A stretch of 64,000 bases of DNA, taken from Cheilinus undulatus. Taxonomy: Eukaryota; Chordata; Actinopteri; Labriformes; Labridae. The position numbers and the translations under genes are program-made. Each line of letters begins with the position of its first letter. Position 1 is the first letter of the stretch. The stretch lies in contig NC_054884.1 of NCBI RefSeq assembly GCF_018320785.1, positions 18,725,667 through 18,789,666 on the forward strand. The letters are read 5' to 3'. Of the stretch, positions 5,491-16,856 are shown piece by piece. The notes below the pieces were generated by a model, which had not been told where the DNA came from, ran no database searches, and saw only the letters and a list, made by a program, of their open reading frames with translations.

Positions 5491-8400
5491 TCAGCACAGC
5501 TCCATCATCTCTTCCAGAGACATCTGCAGCTCCACAGACTGAAGAGAAGAGGCACCACCTATGACCGCCATGTTCTTTAGTAACTCAATTGAGGTCAGGA
5601 ACACCTTAGAGGAAAAAAATAGTAAGGAATGAGAGCATGAAGGAAAACTAGAGATTAACAGCAGCCATACAATTAAAAAAGCAGGAGCAGGATCAAAATG
5701 TCAGACATGTTTCTGCATCTTTTTGTTAAAGCTTTGATTTCTCAGAATGAACTCCTGTTCCAAAACCTTGAATCCCACAGGGATGAGCTGTCAGTGGAGG
5801 TGTCAAGCTTTCTTCTCTGAAATTAATCAATACTTAGACATAATTGCCTCTTGAAATGTGCAGCTGACAAAACCTCCACTGAGTGGGCAATTTCGGGGGT
5901 TTAATCACTCCTGACATTTGAATGAGGTATGTGCAGCAAAAAAAGCAACACCTCTGACGGAAATGCACTATGAAGGTCTTTAAGAGTAGAAAAAAGACCT
6001 GTGCATTTAAATAATTTAAAGGTTTCTCACCTCCACTGTGATGAGTTTTTTCCCCCAAGGCCTGTTGCCAGGGTCAGGCCACTTCTCACCAAGGCAGAAG
6101 AAGAGGGAGCAGGGAGGGGACTCTCCTCTGTCGATGAAGTTCAGTATTCCTACAGAAAAAGCAGGATCAATCACAATATCAAACCAACAAGTCAACAGTG
6201 CATGTTTGCAAAGGTAAGCTTAAGGAAAAAAATCCTCTCACACACCTTGCACAAAGTCCTTGAACTGAAACAGTGGTTCAGGATGCAGCTTAGAAATCTC
6301 TTGGACCTGACAGCTCTTGTCGTACTTGGAGAGGCTCCAAAAAGCTTTGATTTCACCCCGCCGCTGGCAGTAGACCACATGGCCTGACACCCCCACATCC
6401 AAACCTTCACCCAGCTTGTCCAGGATGCGCTGGGTCAGTTTGGTTTGGGTTTGATCCAACATGGCCCGAGGACTTGGCAGAGAGACCAGGGAGAGGCCTG
6501 ACTCTTGATCCAAAACTATCCCTGCAAGTTCAGGTCTGATGTGAGAAAAATTGAATTTGTTAGATTTTTAGTGGAACAAAAGATATACTCTAACATTTTT
6601 GGAAATAGAAGTGCCTATCTTGTATTTGTAAGTTATGGTAGCAGTTATGTCACCTCAGTTAAAATGGTTAGCTAAGTGTAGTACCAAGATAAGCTACTAG
6701 AAAATGACTGAACAAACAAAAACAGATATGTGCTTTTCAGAGAGCCTTCAGTTAGTTGGTAACCTCTCCCCTGTTTTATTAGCATGTACAGTAGTTAGTT
6801 GCTAAAGAAAGTTATAGTAAAGTACTTGCTGAGGTTTGAATGATACAATACTACTCTCATCTCTCCACAGCTAGGTGACTGTTAGCTTAGCTCTAATTTC
6901 AGAAACAAACTCAGGATAGAATAAATTACTTCCAACATGTTTTTTAGGAGGTAAAAAAAGGGCTTAGTTGTAGCCTTTGACACCAGTCAGTACAAGCTAG
7001 TAGTAGCTAGCTAGTAGCTAGTAGTAGGCCACTGGTTTCCCTGTTTAGCCAGTCAGTATCACTGTCTCCACCTTTCCTGTGTTTATGCCATTCTTCTCTT
7101 GGTTTACTTATTATTTACAATATAAATATGAAGCTTGTACTAATATTGTTATCCCTCAAGCCACGCAGAACAACAAATACCATGCTTCTAAAACTGTCAG
7201 ACTGTTACTTGAACAAAAACATTGTATTCAGGTTGTACTGGGAATACTGGAAGTCAATTTTCTAAAAATTCCAATGTGATTAATCTCATAATTTCTAAAA
7301 TTAATCACAATTACTCTCCCCCTTTTTGTCACATCTTGAATTTCCATTTTATTCACAATTTTCCACTTCAAACTTATTTTGTTTCATTTATTTTTTTGCT
7401 TTTAAGTTTTATTTTTGGGCTTTTCATGCCTTTATTGGACAGAGGAGGACAGTGAATAGAATTAGAAATGGGAGAGAGACATGTGGCAAAGGGCCACGAG
7501 CTGGTTTCGAACCCCAGCCACCCGCATACATAGCGCTTTAGATCGCTAGGCCATCTGCACCCCATTTATTTATTTTTTCTTACTCTCTTAAACGTTAAGG
7601 TACTTGACTTCCTGTTTGGATACAGACCTGCTTTTGTTTTGAAATAAAATAAGGAATTTTGAGTAGATCTCAGATTATGACATGCACTTAACCACAGAAA
7701 AAGAAACTTGGATGCACAACTTTATCGGATTATTGATATCAGCAGATATCTTTAAAAGCAAATTATCAATATCTGCAGATTTCAACATTTCTGCTGATAT
7801 TTACGACCAATATTTTGCCAGTAAAAATCTGCCTTTATCAGCTGTCAATATTATCTGTAGGAACAAATAAGTTGGACTGGACCAACAGACCCTTATCAGC
7901 TGTTTTTTCTTTATTCATCATTATTACTTATGCTTACAAGTTTGTTTAAAAGGACTTAAATATGTTAATGACTTATTCATCCTCAAACTTTAAATCATGT
8001 GTTTAAAGGACTGAGGTTTAAGGTCTGAACTACATTTAAATCAATCAATATTGGTATTTGCTAAAATTAATTTTTTAAATATATGCATATCAGATATCAG
8101 CAAAAATCTAATATTGTGCATCCTAATTGTTATGGATTAAAAGGAATATAAGGGAACGGTACTGAGGTAAAGGTATGATAACACGACGTTCAGATGACTA
8201 TTGATTTGTCCACTGAGCTGTGTCATTATTTTTTTTTAGGGGAAATGAGACATTTAGAAGAAGTGGTGTTCTTATTTTACATCACAGCGGCTGCATAGAG
8301 ATATTGCAGTGACTTAACTAAAGTGTGCTGATAGCTCGCAATTAATCATGGTTTTTAAAAATTGCACTTATTATGGACCCTTAATTAATCATAACCAATG

Positions 8401-11224
8401 CATTAAAGCTCACAACCCTTTTGAAAGCCTTTCAGTTTCAATCTTCTTGTGGACACGATGATGCATTTTATCTCTTGACTGTTTTTTCCACTGTAAATGT
8501 GTAGTGTTTTTTAAAGAAAAAAAAATTATCAGCCAAGTTTATGATTTATCAGAAACATTTGCAGTTGAAAATATCCCAGATATGTTGTTTTGGCGGGGTG
8601 CAGTTGATCCATTTGTCTGACACCTACCCTGTGCAGTGGTTACAAGCAAGGTTAAAATGGGTTTGGATTTTTCTTCAGTTTTTTCTTTAATTTCATTTTC
8701 ACTTTCAGTTTTCAGTTTCATTTTAGTTTAGTTTTTATTTGTTTTAGTCTTCATTTTTTCAGATACTTGTCACCGGTGAGACAGGTGAAAAAGTAAACAT
8801 ACATTTTTTACAACACATTTTGATTAACTGAAATGATGCTTACATTTATGTTTTATTATGTTCGTTTCAGTTAACTATAATAACCTTGGTTACAGGCAGT
8901 AAAAAACACTTTACAGAAAGTCAAACTTAATGCTGCTTTTTTTTTGTTGCTTCTGATGGTCACATAGAGGCATCAGTATTCATTTTATTTTTTATAACCA
9001 GTTAGAAGCTCCTTACAGGAGCTCTAATGCTTTATTTGATGTTACCTGTAGACAAGGCGGAATCCAGCTTCATTCTCAACTGTCTGCTCAGATACTTTCA
9101 CTCCCCTGTAGTACACTATTATCCTGAACTGAGTCTCTAAGGATTCAAGCAGAGGACAAGTGTGTTAAAAACATACAGTATTTCAAATATTTTCCTCTTT
9201 AAACATGCTGTATTTCATGTTATGAAGTTTTACTGGCCACATAAAACATATACCATTTAAATAATTGAAGGTGCTTTTTGTGTTTTGTGGGTTTTTTTCT
9301 CTTCAGTGTGATCCTTCGACTTACTGAAACTGTTTCCATCCTTGGTCTGGTTCATCGTCTGCAGAAACAGCTCCTCGTCAAAGGCCCCACCCACGGCCCC
9401 TTCCATTGGACACGCTGGTTGCTCAGGCAACCCAGCTTCCATGGCTGCACCCTCAAACACTACTGGATACTGCTGTTGCCCAGGAAACGCCTGTGCACCA
9501 ATCACAGCCTGGCTGTGGAGCTGTTGTTGCTCAGGAGGAGGCTCAAAGCCTGTGATGCCCTCTGTGGAAAAGTTTGGAGAAAGTGTTTGTGGGAAAGTAG
9601 CTACTGGTTCTCTGATGGTGCTGCAGCAGAAATGAAGAAATGATGAGATGAGACTGGTGAGTCTACCTGGTTCAGGGCCAATGTTGAGCCCCCTCAGACA
9701 CTCCTGGAGAATGTCTTGGTGCACAGTGGACTCAGCTGGCAAATTTGAGATCAGATCACATTCAGAAACGTGATTACACAAGCCTAACTATCAAATTTAT
9801 GATGTGATTAATTCAGCTTACTTACCAGAAGGCCCAGTGTCTTGTTGATTAAAGAGAAAGTCTTCAAAGCATGGGGCCTGGGTCTAAAATATGAAAGATT
9901 TACATCTCAGTGAGTTTGGATGGAAGTATAACTCGTACATTAAACTTCCTGCATGGAGGCTTACATCTTGTATAGGAAAAGTGCAATCATCAAACAAATC
10001 AGAGTCATCTAGGTCCTGGGATCCAGCAGAAGAGTTTGCTGTGGGAGAAAACAAAAGGTCTAGTCACAATCTGCAACTTCATCATTTCTATTCTCCTCAG
10101 AAACACATCTTTAAACTGAGAATCCATTTTTACAAATGGCCCCTTCTCTATTAGCATATTAGCTTGACAACTCTCAACTAGAAAAATGCAGTGATGTGAT
10201 CAAAAGGTGAGGTAATTTAAAAATTCACAACAAACCCACAAACATGCACTAGAGTCACAGCATATTCCCTGATTCAGCTAGTTACAATGCTACAGTGTCA
10301 TTTAGCAGATGCTTTTTTATGCACAGTTATGAACGTCTGAGAGATAGACAGGTGTTCATGGCTTCAAGGACCTTGCCCAAGGGTCCATACTGAATTCTGA
10401 AACTGGCTAGGCCTGGCCAAACCCCCAATCTCCTGTCAGAGATGTAAACCTGAGCTATCCAGCTGCATTTTGTCTCATTTGCGAGCCCTAAGATCACAAT
10501 AATATGAAAATGCTTGGAATTTAAGTGAAGACAAACAAGCTTGAATAATTCTGCATGAAAAAATGGCATCACGTTAGAGCAGATTCAGACAGAAAACAAT
10601 CTGTTTGAATTTTGTCTGTGATTTTTCATGCAGGGAGTCAGAGAATAACACACACTATTTTCAACATAGTTTATTTTCCAAAGATCACACTGGGAAAAGG
10701 TGTTTTTTAACTTGCCTGTTTTCCCACTACAGAAAAGGACCAAATGCTGACTGTCTATGGATGCCGTGGTTGATCCTCACCTCCTGACGCTGATTCATCT
10801 GGCCAGTGAAACACTTTATGAGGGTGTGCAGCGTCATTCTTGTTGTCAGATATGAGTGTAAACTTTTTTGCTCGAAGAGCGCTGCGGAAGTTCCTTTTCC
10901 ATACTGAGGCGTCTCCCTGAGCCCGGCCGTTTCCACTCACCTCTGCCCAGGCCTGCAGGAAGGAAACAGGTAAAAAGATGAACACTGTGAAAATAAGGTT
11001 TTTTGTTTGTTTTTTTAAGCCACGCGATTTATATATCTATACAAGAATGGCATTTTTACCTTAAAAATAAGAATGTCACTGTCAGATGAGTCCTGTCTTA
11101 ACGCATGTTTCCAGGGAATGGAAAACTCTGTGTGCTCCAGGTTTGTCCACTGGACTCCAGGATACTCTCCTCTGTCAATCTTGCTCCGCAGCCATGGGAT
11201 GAGCAGAGGTTTTGAATGAGACAT
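5491..11224 (-). CDS. irf3: Interferon regulatory factor 3, complete nine-exon coding region (497 aa)
   Basis: Exons in transcript order: 11060-11224 (ATG at 11222-11224), 10781-10952, 9965-10038, 9826-9883, 9325-9735, 9046-9136, 6246-6535, 6031-6149 and 5491-5604. All junctions are GT-AG and in phase; total 1494 bases. Residues 5-110 are the IRF winged-helix DNA-binding domain with the tryptophan cluster (PWLRSKID, GVQWTN, FSIPWKHALRQDSSD, AWAEVSG, VWKRNFRSALRAK). Residues 112-290 form an acidic, Pro/Gln-rich linker. Residues 293-475 form the IRF-association domain (VYYRGVKVSEQT, LDVGVSGHVVYCQRRGEIKAFW, LFFCLGEKWPD). The tail has GGASSL at 476-481, matching the human Ser385/386 phospho-site context. 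IRF3 acts downstream of TBK1 to switch on type I interferon. Exon 5 contains a 46-base stretch with splice-like ends that I keep as coding, because removing it breaks the frame. The N-terminal domain rules out IRF7. Confidence 0.93.
7398..7562 (-). mobile_element. tRNA-derived SINE in an irf3 intron
   Basis: On the minus strand the element starts GGGTGCAGATGGCCTAGCG (A-box-like), continues to a B-box-like GGTTCGAAACC, and ends in an A/T-rich tail. A similar sequence with the same TTTATTGGACAGA-like body is at 62739-62879. Flanking CATTTATTTTTT-like sequence on both sides (7385-7397 and from 7563) may be the target-site duplication. Family name not assigned. Confidence 0.7.
7700..8130. repeat. 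Degenerate repeat with ATATCAG / GTGCATCC motifs, possible hAT remnant
   Basis: The stretch carries repeated ATATCAGCAGATATC-like words and ends in AATATTGTGCATCCTAATTG, resembling ends of dispersed fish hAT-type elements that finish in GTGCATCCCTA. A related end, GTGCATCCCTAGATT, occurs near 24321-24334. Boundaries are uncertain. Confidence 0.4.
8639..8896. repeat. MITE-like element with AACCAAGGTTATTATAG-type end
   Basis: The right end reads AACTATAATAACCTTGGTTAC. The left end, TTACAAGCAAGGTTAAAAT, is an imperfect inverted partner. The inside is AT-rich with a GTTTTAGTTT-like body seen in dispersed fish repeats. It lies in the long irf3 intron. Confidence 0.5.
10297..10465. repeat. Interspersed fish repeat (CATTTAGCAGATGC...CCTTGCCCAAGGGTCC)
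   Basis: The sequence starts TCATTTAGCAGATGCTTTT and later has AAGGACCTTGCCCAAGGGTC, both typical of a very common teleost dispersed repeat. This copy is degenerate and lies in the irf3 intron between exons 2 and 3. A related CTTGCCCAAGAACAC block is near 23867. Confidence 0.55.
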
Positions 11225-13001
11225 TTCTGCAGGTGCAAGAAAAAAATCTGTCTGTCAGTACCATCGCGTTTTGTTGCTGTTACAACTCAGAACTGTTTTT
11301 GGTGCTTCTGTAGTCCGTCAACATCCTGACAAGATCAGATCCTTTTTCCAAAATATGACTCCTTAGAAAAGTCATTTTTCTGGTTTAGTTTCCTAAGCAT
11401 CTTTTCACATGCAACATGCAAGGATTGAACAGGCACATGTTCGCAGTTGTTAAAACTCTTAATGAATATTTACTTTAAATTAGGGGCTTTTTTAATCTTG
11501 GAGGAGACATAACTGTGGCGATCTGGGCAGGTAATATTCTATCCTCTGTAAGTTCCAATACACCATTCCATATTGCGCAAACCACTCGGCATTCCTATAA
11601 AATATCAAAAAAAATTATTTTAGAACACTTAACACAGAAGAATTCAATTAATCTTTTGCTGCTTTTCATCATGATCATCATTTGTTGTTTTAATCACAGC
11701 AAAACTAGAGGGCATTTCCAAAATAATACTGCAGTATTGAAGCTATAATTATTGTAGTAGTAAAGAGCATGTAAGACTCAAAGAAAGAGAGAAAAAGGTG
11801 GTGAAGGGGACAGATTAGGTGAGGAGTTATTCATGATTAATTTGAATAAAAATAACTCAGTCTTATATGTATAGATATATGTTAATATGAGACTTTCAGG
11901 TCCCCATTAGGGGGCACTGTTTAGTTATTTAAGCACCACATTTGCTCAGAAAATGTGAAAAAAAAAAATTGAATGATAAAGAAAATTCCCAAAGTAAGGG
12001 GGGTGGGGGGTCATGATGGGGGAGCATGGCAAGACTAAATTAAATCAGTGCAAACCGACCTGCACTGCTACCAAAGCATAGCAAATTTTGTGAGAGGGCC
12101 TCAAGGTACAGGTAACAATGATTTTAAACCAGACACCATGACTACTGAGTCACATTTCGCTCAGTGGGTAATAACAAGAGCTACCGTCTCTTCTTCGCCA
12201 CACCCAGCCTCTGTGATATAGGAGTTTTCCTGCTGTTGCCTCAATTAAGACAAAATACAGATCAAGACTGAATACAAATAAGTGGTGGTCTTACAGCTGT
12301 ACCATTACTTAAAATATATGTAGCATTCAACAAACCCAAAATAGTCACTGAAGTTGTTGCAGGATGGGGGGATTAATCTTACATAATTGCAGTAGTAGTT
12401 GTTCCCATAGTTTGGGAACAACTTTAATAGTGTAAACAGATCCAAAGCAATACACAACAACTGCACTTCTGAATGCTTTACATAAAGTTTAACTGAAATA
12501 TAGTTATTCTGTTATTTAAAGGGTGTTATAAATGTAACTTTAAGAGGAAAGCTTATTCCCGTTTTAATATTCATTTTTTAAATCACAGGAACGAGGAAGC
12601 AGGCAAATATGATGTATGATTTGCAACAATACCAAAACTACTCTAATAACAGCGCATTCAAAATTCAACATTAGATACACACAGATGGGTGTGTTATGGC
12701 AACATGTACTCAAGTATGAAACATACAATACTTTTCCTGATAAGCGCCTCATTGAAAAGTCATACATATTTTCATTTGTGAACAGAAATTCAGTGTTAAT
12801 CTTGAACGTTAGGTTTAGTTTTAATAGAGTTTAAAGTTACAAAGCACAGATTGACAGCACAGCACAGCAGGGGGTCTGACATCTATCAGCGTTAGATTAG
12901 ACTGCATGCCTACTGATGGCCGCCATGTCTTTCGTAACAACAGATGTAAACTTAAATCATTGTACATGCAGCAATGGTTTCATCAATAACGTTTCCCTTA
13001 C
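11225..13001 (-). other. irf3: Probable irf3 5' UTR intron
   Basis: Immediately upstream of the irf3 ATG the minus strand reads CTTGCACCTGCAG then AA-ATG, a good splice acceptor only a few bases before the start codon. A matching donor (GTAAGG on the minus strand, 13001-12996) follows a candidate non-coding exon. The stretch itself is AT-rich with no gene. A small palindrome, GTTGTTCCCA...TGGGAACAAC, lies near 12388-12412. Confidence 0.55.
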
Positions 13002-13170
13002 TTGATGGACGAACGATCAGCTGGTGTTGCAGTTGGTGCTGTGGTCTCGTGCAGTTGTTGTCAGACGTCAGCAGTGCAAACGTGCCCTGTGAGCAAAGAA
13101 AGTAGTATATCCCAGCACACAATTCCTTAAGTACAAAGCAGGACACAGTGGGGTGGTAGTAAGCCGTGTC
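13002..13170 (-). other. irf3: Candidate irf3 non-coding first exon
   Basis: On the minus strand the sequence ends CGTCCATCAA with donor GTAAGGG, and it lies just downstream of the kappaB/ISRE/CRE cluster. The transcription start is not determined; 13170 is an approximate upstream limit. Inferred only from splice and promoter signals. Confidence 0.45.
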
Positions 13171-13180
13171 GGGTTTTCTT

Positions 13181-13234
13181 GGGAAACTCCGAGTCTCAGT
13201 TTCGTTTTCTGAATGTGACGTCAGAGGGAGTTTC
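13181..13234 (-). promoter_or_regulatory. irf3: kappaB + ISRE + CRE cluster at the putative irf3 promoter
   Basis: Within 54 bases the plus strand contains GGGAAACTCC (13181-13190, fits the NF-kappaB consensus GGGRNNYYCC), AGTTTCGTTTTC (13198-13209, a full match to the ISRE consensus AGTTTCNNTTTC), TGACGTCA (13216-13223, a perfect CRE/ATF site) and a second AGTTTC half-site (13229-13234). GAAACTCC at 13183-13190 and GGAGTTTC at 13227-13234 form inverted flanks. The order and density recall the interferon-beta enhancer. I infer interferon- and virus-inducible transcription of irf3. Confidence 0.75.
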
Positions 13235-13479
13235 ATACCGACCGGGCCCTCTAGGTGGGGTCACACACAAATAGACGCACAAGCACATTTAGATTTGTGT
13301 CCTTGTGAGGTCCCATACACTCATAAACTAGAATAACAGAAAAAATAAGCTAATAAATAAAAAATAACAACAACAAAATACTCACTTTAAGCTGTGTTCT
13401 TTCTGATGTAGATACAATGAAAACGTTCTGCTGATCAGTCACATTTTTAAACGCACATCAAATTTCAAATTTTTCAGGT

Positions 13480-14500
13480 CTCTATCTCTTTTTTTACTTC
13501 TTATCTTGTAATTATGACTTTGAATCTAATTATTACAATTTATGTCATAGTAATAACTCACTACCTTGAAACTCTGCCTTTTAAACGCATATTTTTCACT
13601 TTTTATCTCATAATTTTGACTTTTTGTTACCATTTTGACTTTTAACTACAATTATGACTTTTGATTTCATGATTATCGTCATTATTATGACTTAAAATCT
13701 CAAAATTCAGACTTTTTAGCTAACAATTGTGGTTTTGTGGTCATAATCTTGACTTTTAAGCTCATGATTATAACTTGTCTCATGATTTTGATTCAAAATC
13801 TAGTAATTTTGACTTTTAAACTAATAAATTGATTTTTTTCCTTAATATTTTTTAGCTTTTTCTCATAATTTCATCCATTTACCTCAAAATGCCGACTTTT
13901 TAGATTACATTGAAATGCTTTAGTTTTATAATTTTGAAAATCTCATAATTGTCTTAAAATTTAATTTAAACTTTTTTTTACCTCAAAATGAGGACTTTTA
14001 ATCCGATTTAGATTTTTTATCTCATAACTAAGATTATTGATATAAGGTTTATGTTTTACAATTTAATCATTTTAGCCTTTTACCTCAAAATTATGACTTT
14101 TTTCACATATAATTGTTTTACTCGTAATTTGGACTTTCAAGCTCTTAAAATATTTTTTTTCTATCTCATAATTTTGACTTTTTACATCACAGTAATGGCT
14201 TTTGTTACCTAATTTTGACTCTTTATCGAATTGTTTTACTCTCTTTATTTTGACTTATAAATCTCAGAATGACTTTTAATCTTATGATGCTACTTGTCTC
14301 ATGGTTTATAATGTACAATCTGGTAATTTTTACTTTCAAACTCATAATATTGACTTTTTCTAATGACCTTTTGACTTTTTACCTAATAATAATCAGGTTT
14401 TTTTTTAATCACAGTTAGATTTTTTATCTCATAATTGTTACTTTTATCTCACAATTGTGACTTTTTAATCTCATAATTTCAATGAAAGATTATTAATTTA
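13480..14500. repeat. AT-rich degenerate minisatellite (CTCATAATTTTGACTTTTTA-type unit)
   Basis: Roughly 1 kb is built from diverged copies of a unit of about 20 bases close to CTCATAATTTTGACTTTTTA. Examples begin near 13608, 13778, 14164 and 14432. No open frame or RNA gene was seen. Copies differ by point changes and small indels, indicating an old array. Confidence 0.75.
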
Positions 14501-15637
14501 TTTGATCATTTCTTCCCTTTCAAATGTATGTATTTTTTCAAATGGCAGAAGTGGGCTTCCATAAAAACCTGGCTGAATAAAGGTTAAATTAAAAAATAAA
14601 ATAAAATAAAGATCCCAGTTATGTTTTTAAAAAAACATGGTTTCAGATGTAAATAGGGCATACTACAATTTCACTGGAATGTTTTATTAAATAAGCATGC
14701 TTAGACTTTAAATTTTCAACTACAGGATGAAATGTGTGGCCTAAAAATCGGACATTTCTGTGAATGCCTTTCAGAGGCTTGTGATTTATAAATTAAAATT
14801 GTGTAGACTGCATACCTGATAACGGTCACAGATAATCCGTTTTAGGGGGAACCTTACCAATATTTTTCATCCTTATTAGATAAACATAAGTGTCTTTTAT
14901 AATTAATATTGTGCAAATAATCACACTAGATCTTGAAATTCTGAGAAAAATTTAAAGATAAACTCACACAAAGGCTGCCACTGTGAACTCTGGGTAGTGC
15001 TGTCAAATGTTTTGTGTTGCTCCTCTCACATCTTTCTGATTGCACTCACCTTGATCTACATTACAGTAACCCCTTCATTACTATCAGCTTCACTAAAGTG
15101 CACTCAGGTTTTAAAGTTTTCTCTACACAGCAATCTATTGTTCGTTTGTACAACATACACTACTGTTGATCTAAAAAGGACAATATATCTAAATATGCAG
15201 CGTTCCTTTTCAACTTTGAAAAACTTTACTGCTTAAATTTTTCAACTAAACAGCCAACATTTCTTTAAAATAAGTTTTTATAAACTTCACTTTTCATTTA
15301 AAGTTAATTGGACTTCTATTCATTGCATTTCTATGGCTTGTTTTTTGTCACTGGCATGCACAAGTAAATATCTTATGTCTGCTTTTTGTTTTAATGACTT
15401 GGTAAGTTCCCTTGAATATAGACAAAAATGGTCTGAAACTGCTAACTTTTTGTTTTTCTGTTTGCTTGACCGACTTTGACCCTTAAAAAGCCAAAAATCT
15501 CCAAACACATGAGATCTAAGACAAAATACCCTCACATCTAATGTCTAGAAATGAAAATGAGCTTAAAGATCACTGTAGGTCAACTATAGGCCAGCAGACA
15601 CTGTAGGGAAATGAAGCAGCGTTTGTTCTTTGCAGAT
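14501..15637. other. Intergenic sequence between irf3 and prr12, no gene seen
   Basis: AT-rich, with only short frames and no recognisable similarity. The right end leads into the probable prr12 3' UTR. Confidence 0.55.
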
Positions 15638-16856
15638 TTTATTTGTTTCTCAAATACAGGAGAGTTAATGTACAGAAGGACAAAGAATTTCATCAAGAAC
15701 TGTACAATATTTACAAACATTTTTTTTTCCTTTTTTATGGAAAATTAGATTGTTTTCAAAATAAGTCGTAGTATGCACAAACATCAAAATGATAAAAATG
15801 AAATGACTATTTCCTCTTTAAATATTACTTATTTATACTCCTTCTTCCCACATGGGGAACGGATAGTTTACTTCTTTTTCTTTGCACCTGCATGACTGAT
15901 GATTGAACTGAAGCACAACAATGTTAAGTTTCAAATAGATCTGCCCGTCCTCTTCTTCTTCTTTTTTTCTTCTTTCTTTTTTATTATTTTACACCCACTG
16001 TACTACATCCAATATTTCTGTCTCAGTCTGTTTGTATAGAGGGGAAGACGGCTTGGATATGTGGGTTACGACTGTATACTGAACCTGTAGAAAATAAAAG
16101 GTATTTAAAATGTTTCGGGCAGCAAACCCAGCGCTTGTGAGAGTTTAAGTTAAAAACCTCCTCATATAAATAATAAAAATGTGTTTATATATTATCACAC
16201 AGCGGACTGGAGCTGCCCTTCACATAGCACAGGATGAGAGAGAGAGAAAGAGAGCGTTTTATCACATTTCATGTTTCTATCCTGGACGAGTCCATGCTCA
16301 CGCTGCTCACGGCACACTCCACACGCAGTTTAAAAAGCATTCTCACCCTCTTCCACTCTTTTCAAAAGCCGACAGCTGATGTTAGTCTTCAAAAAATAAT
16401 TTATGTAAAAACTAAGTGGTAATAGTTTATCTTTGAACTATCGTCTTTATGACGCACGCTTAACACAATGTCAGTTGCTCCTCGGTCGACTTGGCTTTTT
16501 TTTTCGGCTCCTCCTCTTTGTCCTTCGCTCCCTTTTCAACAATTCCCTCTGACCCACCAGCGACCCCTGATCTGGTAGGGCAGGGTGGGGTCCCCCTTCC
16601 TCACAAAGTACGACAATTCTTTAGTCATTGATCGACAACAAGAAAAAGAACAGAGGCCAGTGTCCGAGGTCACATGAACAGACCTCTTTGTGTTCGTCAA
16701 GGGCCTTAAAAATCCATCCTCAGATCTTAGAGATTTGAAGAAGACGTGGTGGGGGGGCTGTACAGTGGGATCCATCATTTTCCTTTTTGGATTTTCTTCT
16801 TTTTTTTTTAAATCCTCTTAACCTTAAATTCTTTGTCTCTTGTTTTTGCAAGCAGC
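15638..16856 (-). other. prr12: Probable prr12 3' UTR
   Basis: The sequence follows the prr12 stop codon on the minus strand. An AATAAA (TTTATT on +, 15638-15643) about 1.2 kb downstream is a plausible poly-A signal. No other coding sequence is apparent. The true end is not determined. Confidence 0.45.

Follow-up and report, generated by a model that had tools for sequence, protein, structure and literature searches.

A 54-base block of DNA of the fish Cheilinus undulatus carries a CRE, a full ISRE and an exact kappaB match, and we consider it reasonably likely that irf3 is controlled through this block as a promoter-proximal, inducible element, with the ISRE as its core and with added NF-kappaB and ATF/CREB inputs. 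Through this cluster, infection and interferon can probably increase the expression of irf3 itself. We favor this reading because of the sites themselves, the rarity of the ordered triple, a peak in CpG density at the same place, the identity of the gene as irf3 and the published inducibility of irf3 in fish. The DNA analyzed, called the window below, was a stretch of 64,000 nucleotides of Cheilinus undulatus (assembly GCF_018320785.1, NC_054884.1, positions 18,725,667-18,789,666, forward strand). Positions are those of the window, and genome-wide counts were made in the species' own genome of 1.17 Gb.

The irf3 gene and its promoter interval

Sequence comparison identifies the gene next to the block as irf3, as the original prediction had proposed. 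The joined DBD was closest to IRF3 chains: among single-protein chains the values were 2e-28 for IRF3, 9e-20 for IRF10 and 1e-18 for IRF7, and the top row (3e-46) was a p65/IRF7/IRF3 fusion that was matched in two stretches. The association-domain frames matched IRF3 (7jfm_A, E 0.0012) and IRF5 (3dsh_A, E 0.0089) in PDB. The following parts of the gene were recognized.

11060-11226, minus strand: first coding exon of irf3, Pfam IRF E 2.1e-14, with the ATG at 11224-11222
10806-10958, minus strand: second coding exon of irf3, holding the rest of the DBD, Pfam IRF E 3.4e-8; the coordinates are the span of the match, not the exon ends
6238-6567 and 6016-6219, minus strand: frames of the irf3 IRF association domain, Pfam IRF-3 E 7.4e-11 and 4.3e-6

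The upstream neighbor, on the same (minus) strand, is a gene that presumably resembles prr12 and matches DUF4211 only weakly (E 1.5e-4, 22.4 bits, below the 27-bit cut-off), and beyond irf3, on the plus strand, is ric8. Minus-strand AATAAA motifs at 15985, 15643, 14688, 14502 and 14249 give several candidate ends for the DUF4211 gene. The block sits in the interval between this gene and irf3, or close to the edge of that interval, which is most likely where the irf3 promoter lies. Part of the surrounding DNA (13450-14500) is AT-rich and looks by eye like a run of degenerate, roughly 20-base repeats (TTTTGACTTTTTATCTCATAA-like), which the tandem-repeat finder caught only in part, and at 408-1265 there are broken transposase-like remnants (HTH_Tnp_Tc3_2, E 0.0079; DDE_3, E 2.1e-5; both below curated cut-offs).

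The first coding exon seems to start 2 bases ahead of the ATG, after a good acceptor (CTGCAG/AAATG, just before 11226), and to end at a donor at 11059 (AAG/GTAAAA), these edges being read from the sequence. Because the coding exon opens at an acceptor so close to the ATG, a non-coding exon is expected upstream. Minus-strand donor-like sites in the 11.3-15.7 kb stretch, scored with a textbook position table, include those at 15049 (8.2 bits), 14815 (4.7 bits), 13385 (4.4 bits) and 13001 (4.3 bits). The donors that apparently end the DBD exons score 2.2 bits (11059) and 7.3 bits (10780), and the score therefore cannot pick the donor of exon 1. The site at 15049, AAG/GTGAGT, is a strong donor between the DUF4211 gene and irf3 without an assigned exon. 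Two features in this interval bear on where transcription begins.

12951-13300, no strand: CpG-densest stretch of 11.3-15.7 kb and probable irf3 promoter, which includes the block
13002-13180, minus strand: candidate non-coding exon 1, placed by its presumed end at the donor CAA/GTAAGG (13001, 4.3 bits)

The first of these holds 13 CpG per 300 bp, the top value in 11.3-15.7 kb and about rank 50 among all 300-bp windows (step 50) of the 64 kb. Because the CpG peak is there, we favor a transcription start at about 13.1 kb, which would leave the block about 100 bases upstream of it. The original prediction had the block lying directly ahead of a candidate first exon; the block is indeed upstream of irf3 and the arrangement is plausible, but the start codon (11224) is about 2 kb away and exon 1 keeps the standing of a candidate. 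A 102-codon open frame on the minus strand (12952-13260, ATG at 13236) also crosses the block. It is probably a product of chance, although a transcript that began further upstream would carry it as an upstream reading frame.

The sites in the block and their rarity

The consensuses used were GGGRNWYYCC for kappaB, GAAANNGAAAC(T) for ISRE and TGACGTCA for CRE. The kappaB, ISRE and CRE sites and the second half-site that had been described within 54 bases were all found where they had been placed when the coordinates were checked, inside 13181-13234.

13181-13190, minus strand: kappaB site, GGGAAACTCC on the plus strand and GGAGTTTCCC in gene sense, an exact match to GGGRNWYYCC
13198-13209, minus strand: ISRE, AGTTTCGTTTTC on the plus strand and GAAAACGAAACT in gene sense, with the full 12-base GAAANNGAAACT core, some 2 kb away from the ATG
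13216-13223, no strand: palindromic CRE or ATF site TGACGTCA, the sole copy in the window
13227-13234, minus strand: distal GGAGTTTC, an IRF half-site or a one-off kappaB look-alike (GGGAGTTTCA on the plus strand) that repeats 13183-13190 in inverted orientation

Read in gene sense, on the minus strand, the block is GAAACTCCC-TC-TGACGTCA-CATTCA-GAAAACGAAACT-GAGACTC-GGAGTTTCCC, which puts the CRE first, then the ISRE, and the kappaB site closest to irf3. Neighboring sites are separated by spacers of 6 bases (CRE to ISRE) and 7 bases (ISRE to kappaB), and the three consensus sites are contained within 43 bases. A second CRE-like sequence, TGACGTCTGA in gene sense, is found at 13061-13070, 145 bases nearer irf3 than the CRE of the block, and GACGTCAG is repeated exactly on the plus strand at 13064 and 13217.

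The inverted flanks reported earlier, GAAACTCC and GGAGTTTC, are present at 13183-13190 and 13227-13234 (8 nt, 100% identical, 36 nt apart). They are weak evidence, because we estimate a chance of a few percent that an exact inverted pair of 8 bases arises within 60 bases, and because the fold is ordinary: a cruciform built on these flanks was rejected at a DNA fold z of -1.17, with 23 of 200 shuffles folding at least as well. An origin of the block from a repeat or transposon was rejected as well, since 13100-13400 (301 bases) matched only itself in a genome-wide search that skipped very common words. None of the five tandem-repeat rows in 11300-16000 overlapped the block, and no RNA element in Rfam matched at gathering score across the 64-kb window.

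The window holds a single TGACGTCA, two copies of GAAANNGAAAC and five matches to GGGRNWYYCC. One ordered CRE-ISRE-kappaB triple, with gaps of at most 12 bases, turned up in the window, and 0 of 100 dinucleotide shuffles produced one. When order was ignored and the three sites had only to fall within about 54 bases, a rough first-order Markov model predicted 2e-6 per 64 kb, or about 0.04 per 1.17 Gb, and a model trained on the CpG-rich flanks gave an expectation of 0.03 triples per genome.

The pairing of CRE and ISRE alone is unremarkable, because a CRE followed by GAAANNGAAAC within 30 bases was found 11 times in the genome, compared with 36 times for a reversed-pattern control and about 3 expected by motif rates. 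A kappaB match within -60 to +110 of the pair accompanied one of the 11, solely the irf3 block, and the other 10 had no kappaB match in this 170-base span. Motif rates predict about 0.15 kappaB-bearing pairs among 11 for the same span, and we therefore regard the single occurrence as suggestive, not overwhelming. On the same counts, the idea that CRE-ISRE pairs are a general mark was rejected.

Twelve IRF genes including irf3, delimited by our own grouping of 24 exon matches, were surveyed, in each case over 3.5 kb upstream from whichever DBD exon was detected first. In that stretch the cluster was found at 0 of the 11 other genes, where single sites were TGACGTCA at 2/11, GAAANNGAAAC at 1/11 and GGGRNWYYCC at 3/11. 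For at least three of the 11 (L055, L056 and L058) the detected exon starts at profile position 19-22, which means that a coding exon ahead of it was missed and that the promoter is further off and probably uncovered; others may have non-coding first exons, and the 0/11 holds for the 3.5-kb stretch only. One surveyed IRF gene (L045/L039, G000:C26:123280-124738) is on a short contig (129,596 bases).

Comparison with the IFNB1 enhancer and rival readings

The IFNB1 enhancer is of similar length to the block. Its elements are ordered PRDIV-PRDIII-PRDI-PRDII, that is, ATF-type, IRF and kappaB toward the gene (PMC7411613), and the irf3 block has the same order toward irf3. The same source describes four overlapping AANNGAAA elements in the IFNB1 enhancer (PMC7411613), whereas 13176-13240 contains one on the minus strand and none on the plus strand, and for this reason the irf3 block falls outside the IFNB1 class in the strict sense. 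The irf3 block also differs in having a palindromic CRE and sites separated by 6-7 bases, and it would control the gene of a transcription factor, where the IFNB1 enhancer controls the cytokine. The block may work like the IFNB1 enhancer, but by the features tested it is not a member of that class. The original description of the block as interferon-beta-enhancer-like holds for the order of its sites, but not for the number of AANNGAAA elements or for the symmetry of the CRE.

This resemblance raises the idea of an enhanceosome-like switch, in which ATF2/c-Jun, IRF3/7 and NF-kappaB, once activated by virus, would bind the CRE, ISRE and kappaB sites together and cooperatively, and infected cells would in this way raise irf3 directly, ahead of interferon action. 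The shared order, the packing of three consensus sites within 43 bases and the fact that this is the sole CRE-ISRE pair of 11 with a nearby kappaB match all speak for it, but the single AANNGAAA element, a symmetric CRE that leaves the direction of the heterodimer unfixed, and the distances of 6 and 7 bases between sites make it quite unlikely in our judgment; cooperative binding and virus induction are both putative. At the opposite extreme, the cluster could be a chance assembly without function. The sites are consensus matches alone, many motif combinations were open to choice, and the 11 genomic CRE-ISRE pairs are fewer than those of the reversed control. We nevertheless find this very improbable, given that 0 of 100 shuffles and a low Markov expectation stand against such a triple, that the block adjoins an interferon-pathway gene, and that ISREs in fish irf3 promoters have been reported (PMC5013148).

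Two further readings keep a function for the block or part of it. CpG-rich promoters often carry palindromic CREs, and the CRE might be an ordinary CREB/ATF site of such a housekeeping promoter, with interferon inducibility coming from the ISRE and the kappaB match being due to chance. Such matches are expected about once per 13 kb, and the second CRE-like TGACGTCTGA nearby fits a promoter of this kind, but the kappaB match is exact and only 7 bases from the ISRE, and the triple is rare by shuffles, Markov models and genome pairs alike, which leaves this reading possible but doubtful. Alternatively, irf3 might start near 15.1-15.6 kb, with a first exon that ends at the donor at 15049 and the block serving as an enhancer in intron 1. 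The 8.2-bit score of that donor is in its favor, as only 3 of 3394 GTs on this strand across the window, counting the donor itself, reach or exceed it; the CpG peak of the interval, at 12.95-13.3 kb, is away from 15 kb, and we consider an intronic position unlikely.

Induction of irf3 in fish

Under the promoter-proximal reading that we prefer, the ISRE would be the core of the element, bound by ISGF3-type complexes after interferon and by IRFs after virus sensing. It would make irf3 an interferon-stimulated gene and would close a positive loop from IRF3 to IFN and back to irf3. The adjoining kappaB and CRE sites would most likely supply NF-kappaB and ATF/CREB-family inputs, and these could maintain basal activity and speed up or strengthen the response. 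We infer that these exact sites are bound and that the kappaB and CRE sites matter.

Published work describes irf3 of fish, unlike mammalian IRF3, as interferon-stimulated and as carrying ISREs in its promoters (PMC5013148; PMC3296712). Mammalian IRF3 is constitutive; its partner IRF7, a different gene, is an IRF that type I interferon does raise (PMC5013148). The irf3 transcript is reported to go up with interferon or poly(I:C) in other fish, and one of the interferons, IFNh, failed to induce it in large yellow croaker (PMC5013148). An IRF3-promoter reporter has been used in fish cells under poly(I:C) and virus (PMC10066338), and fish work more broadly has tested such reporters with poly(I:C), virus or TRAF3 (PMC10066338, PMC11201635), the available parts of both reports giving no promoter sequence. 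Because interferon-induced, ISRE-bearing fish irf3 is already in print (PMC5013148), feedback on irf3 in fish is known and is not new here. The same publications support the part of the original prediction that has irf3 induced by the inputs it triggers (PMC5013148), and its wiring through one composite element is the part that stays conditional.

What the other teleost irf3 promoters considered here (large yellow croaker and, by citation, carp) have in common is an ISRE and interferon induction (PMC5013148, PMC3296712). Those promoters were compared by their ISREs alone, whereas the ISRE of Cheilinus undulatus irf3 is flanked by a consensus CRE and a kappaB site. A CRE-ISRE-kappaB layout at irf3 was not found in the literature searched, which was mostly at the level of abstracts, with subscription journals, figures and supplements outside its scope.

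The block offers a precise, mutable target of 54 bases for the known difference in irf3 inducibility between fish and mammals (PMC5013148). Were the enhanceosome-like reading true, irf3 would be induced by the very trio of activated factors that turn on interferon, and it is conceivable, though improbable, that this fish lineage gained in this way a compact irf3 switch for direct induction, independent of interferon feedback and earlier than it. Should the CRE and kappaB sites act together with the ISRE, irf3 could be raised by virus sensing without an intermediate step, and the time at which the feedback originated could be tested by following one short block across vertebrates.
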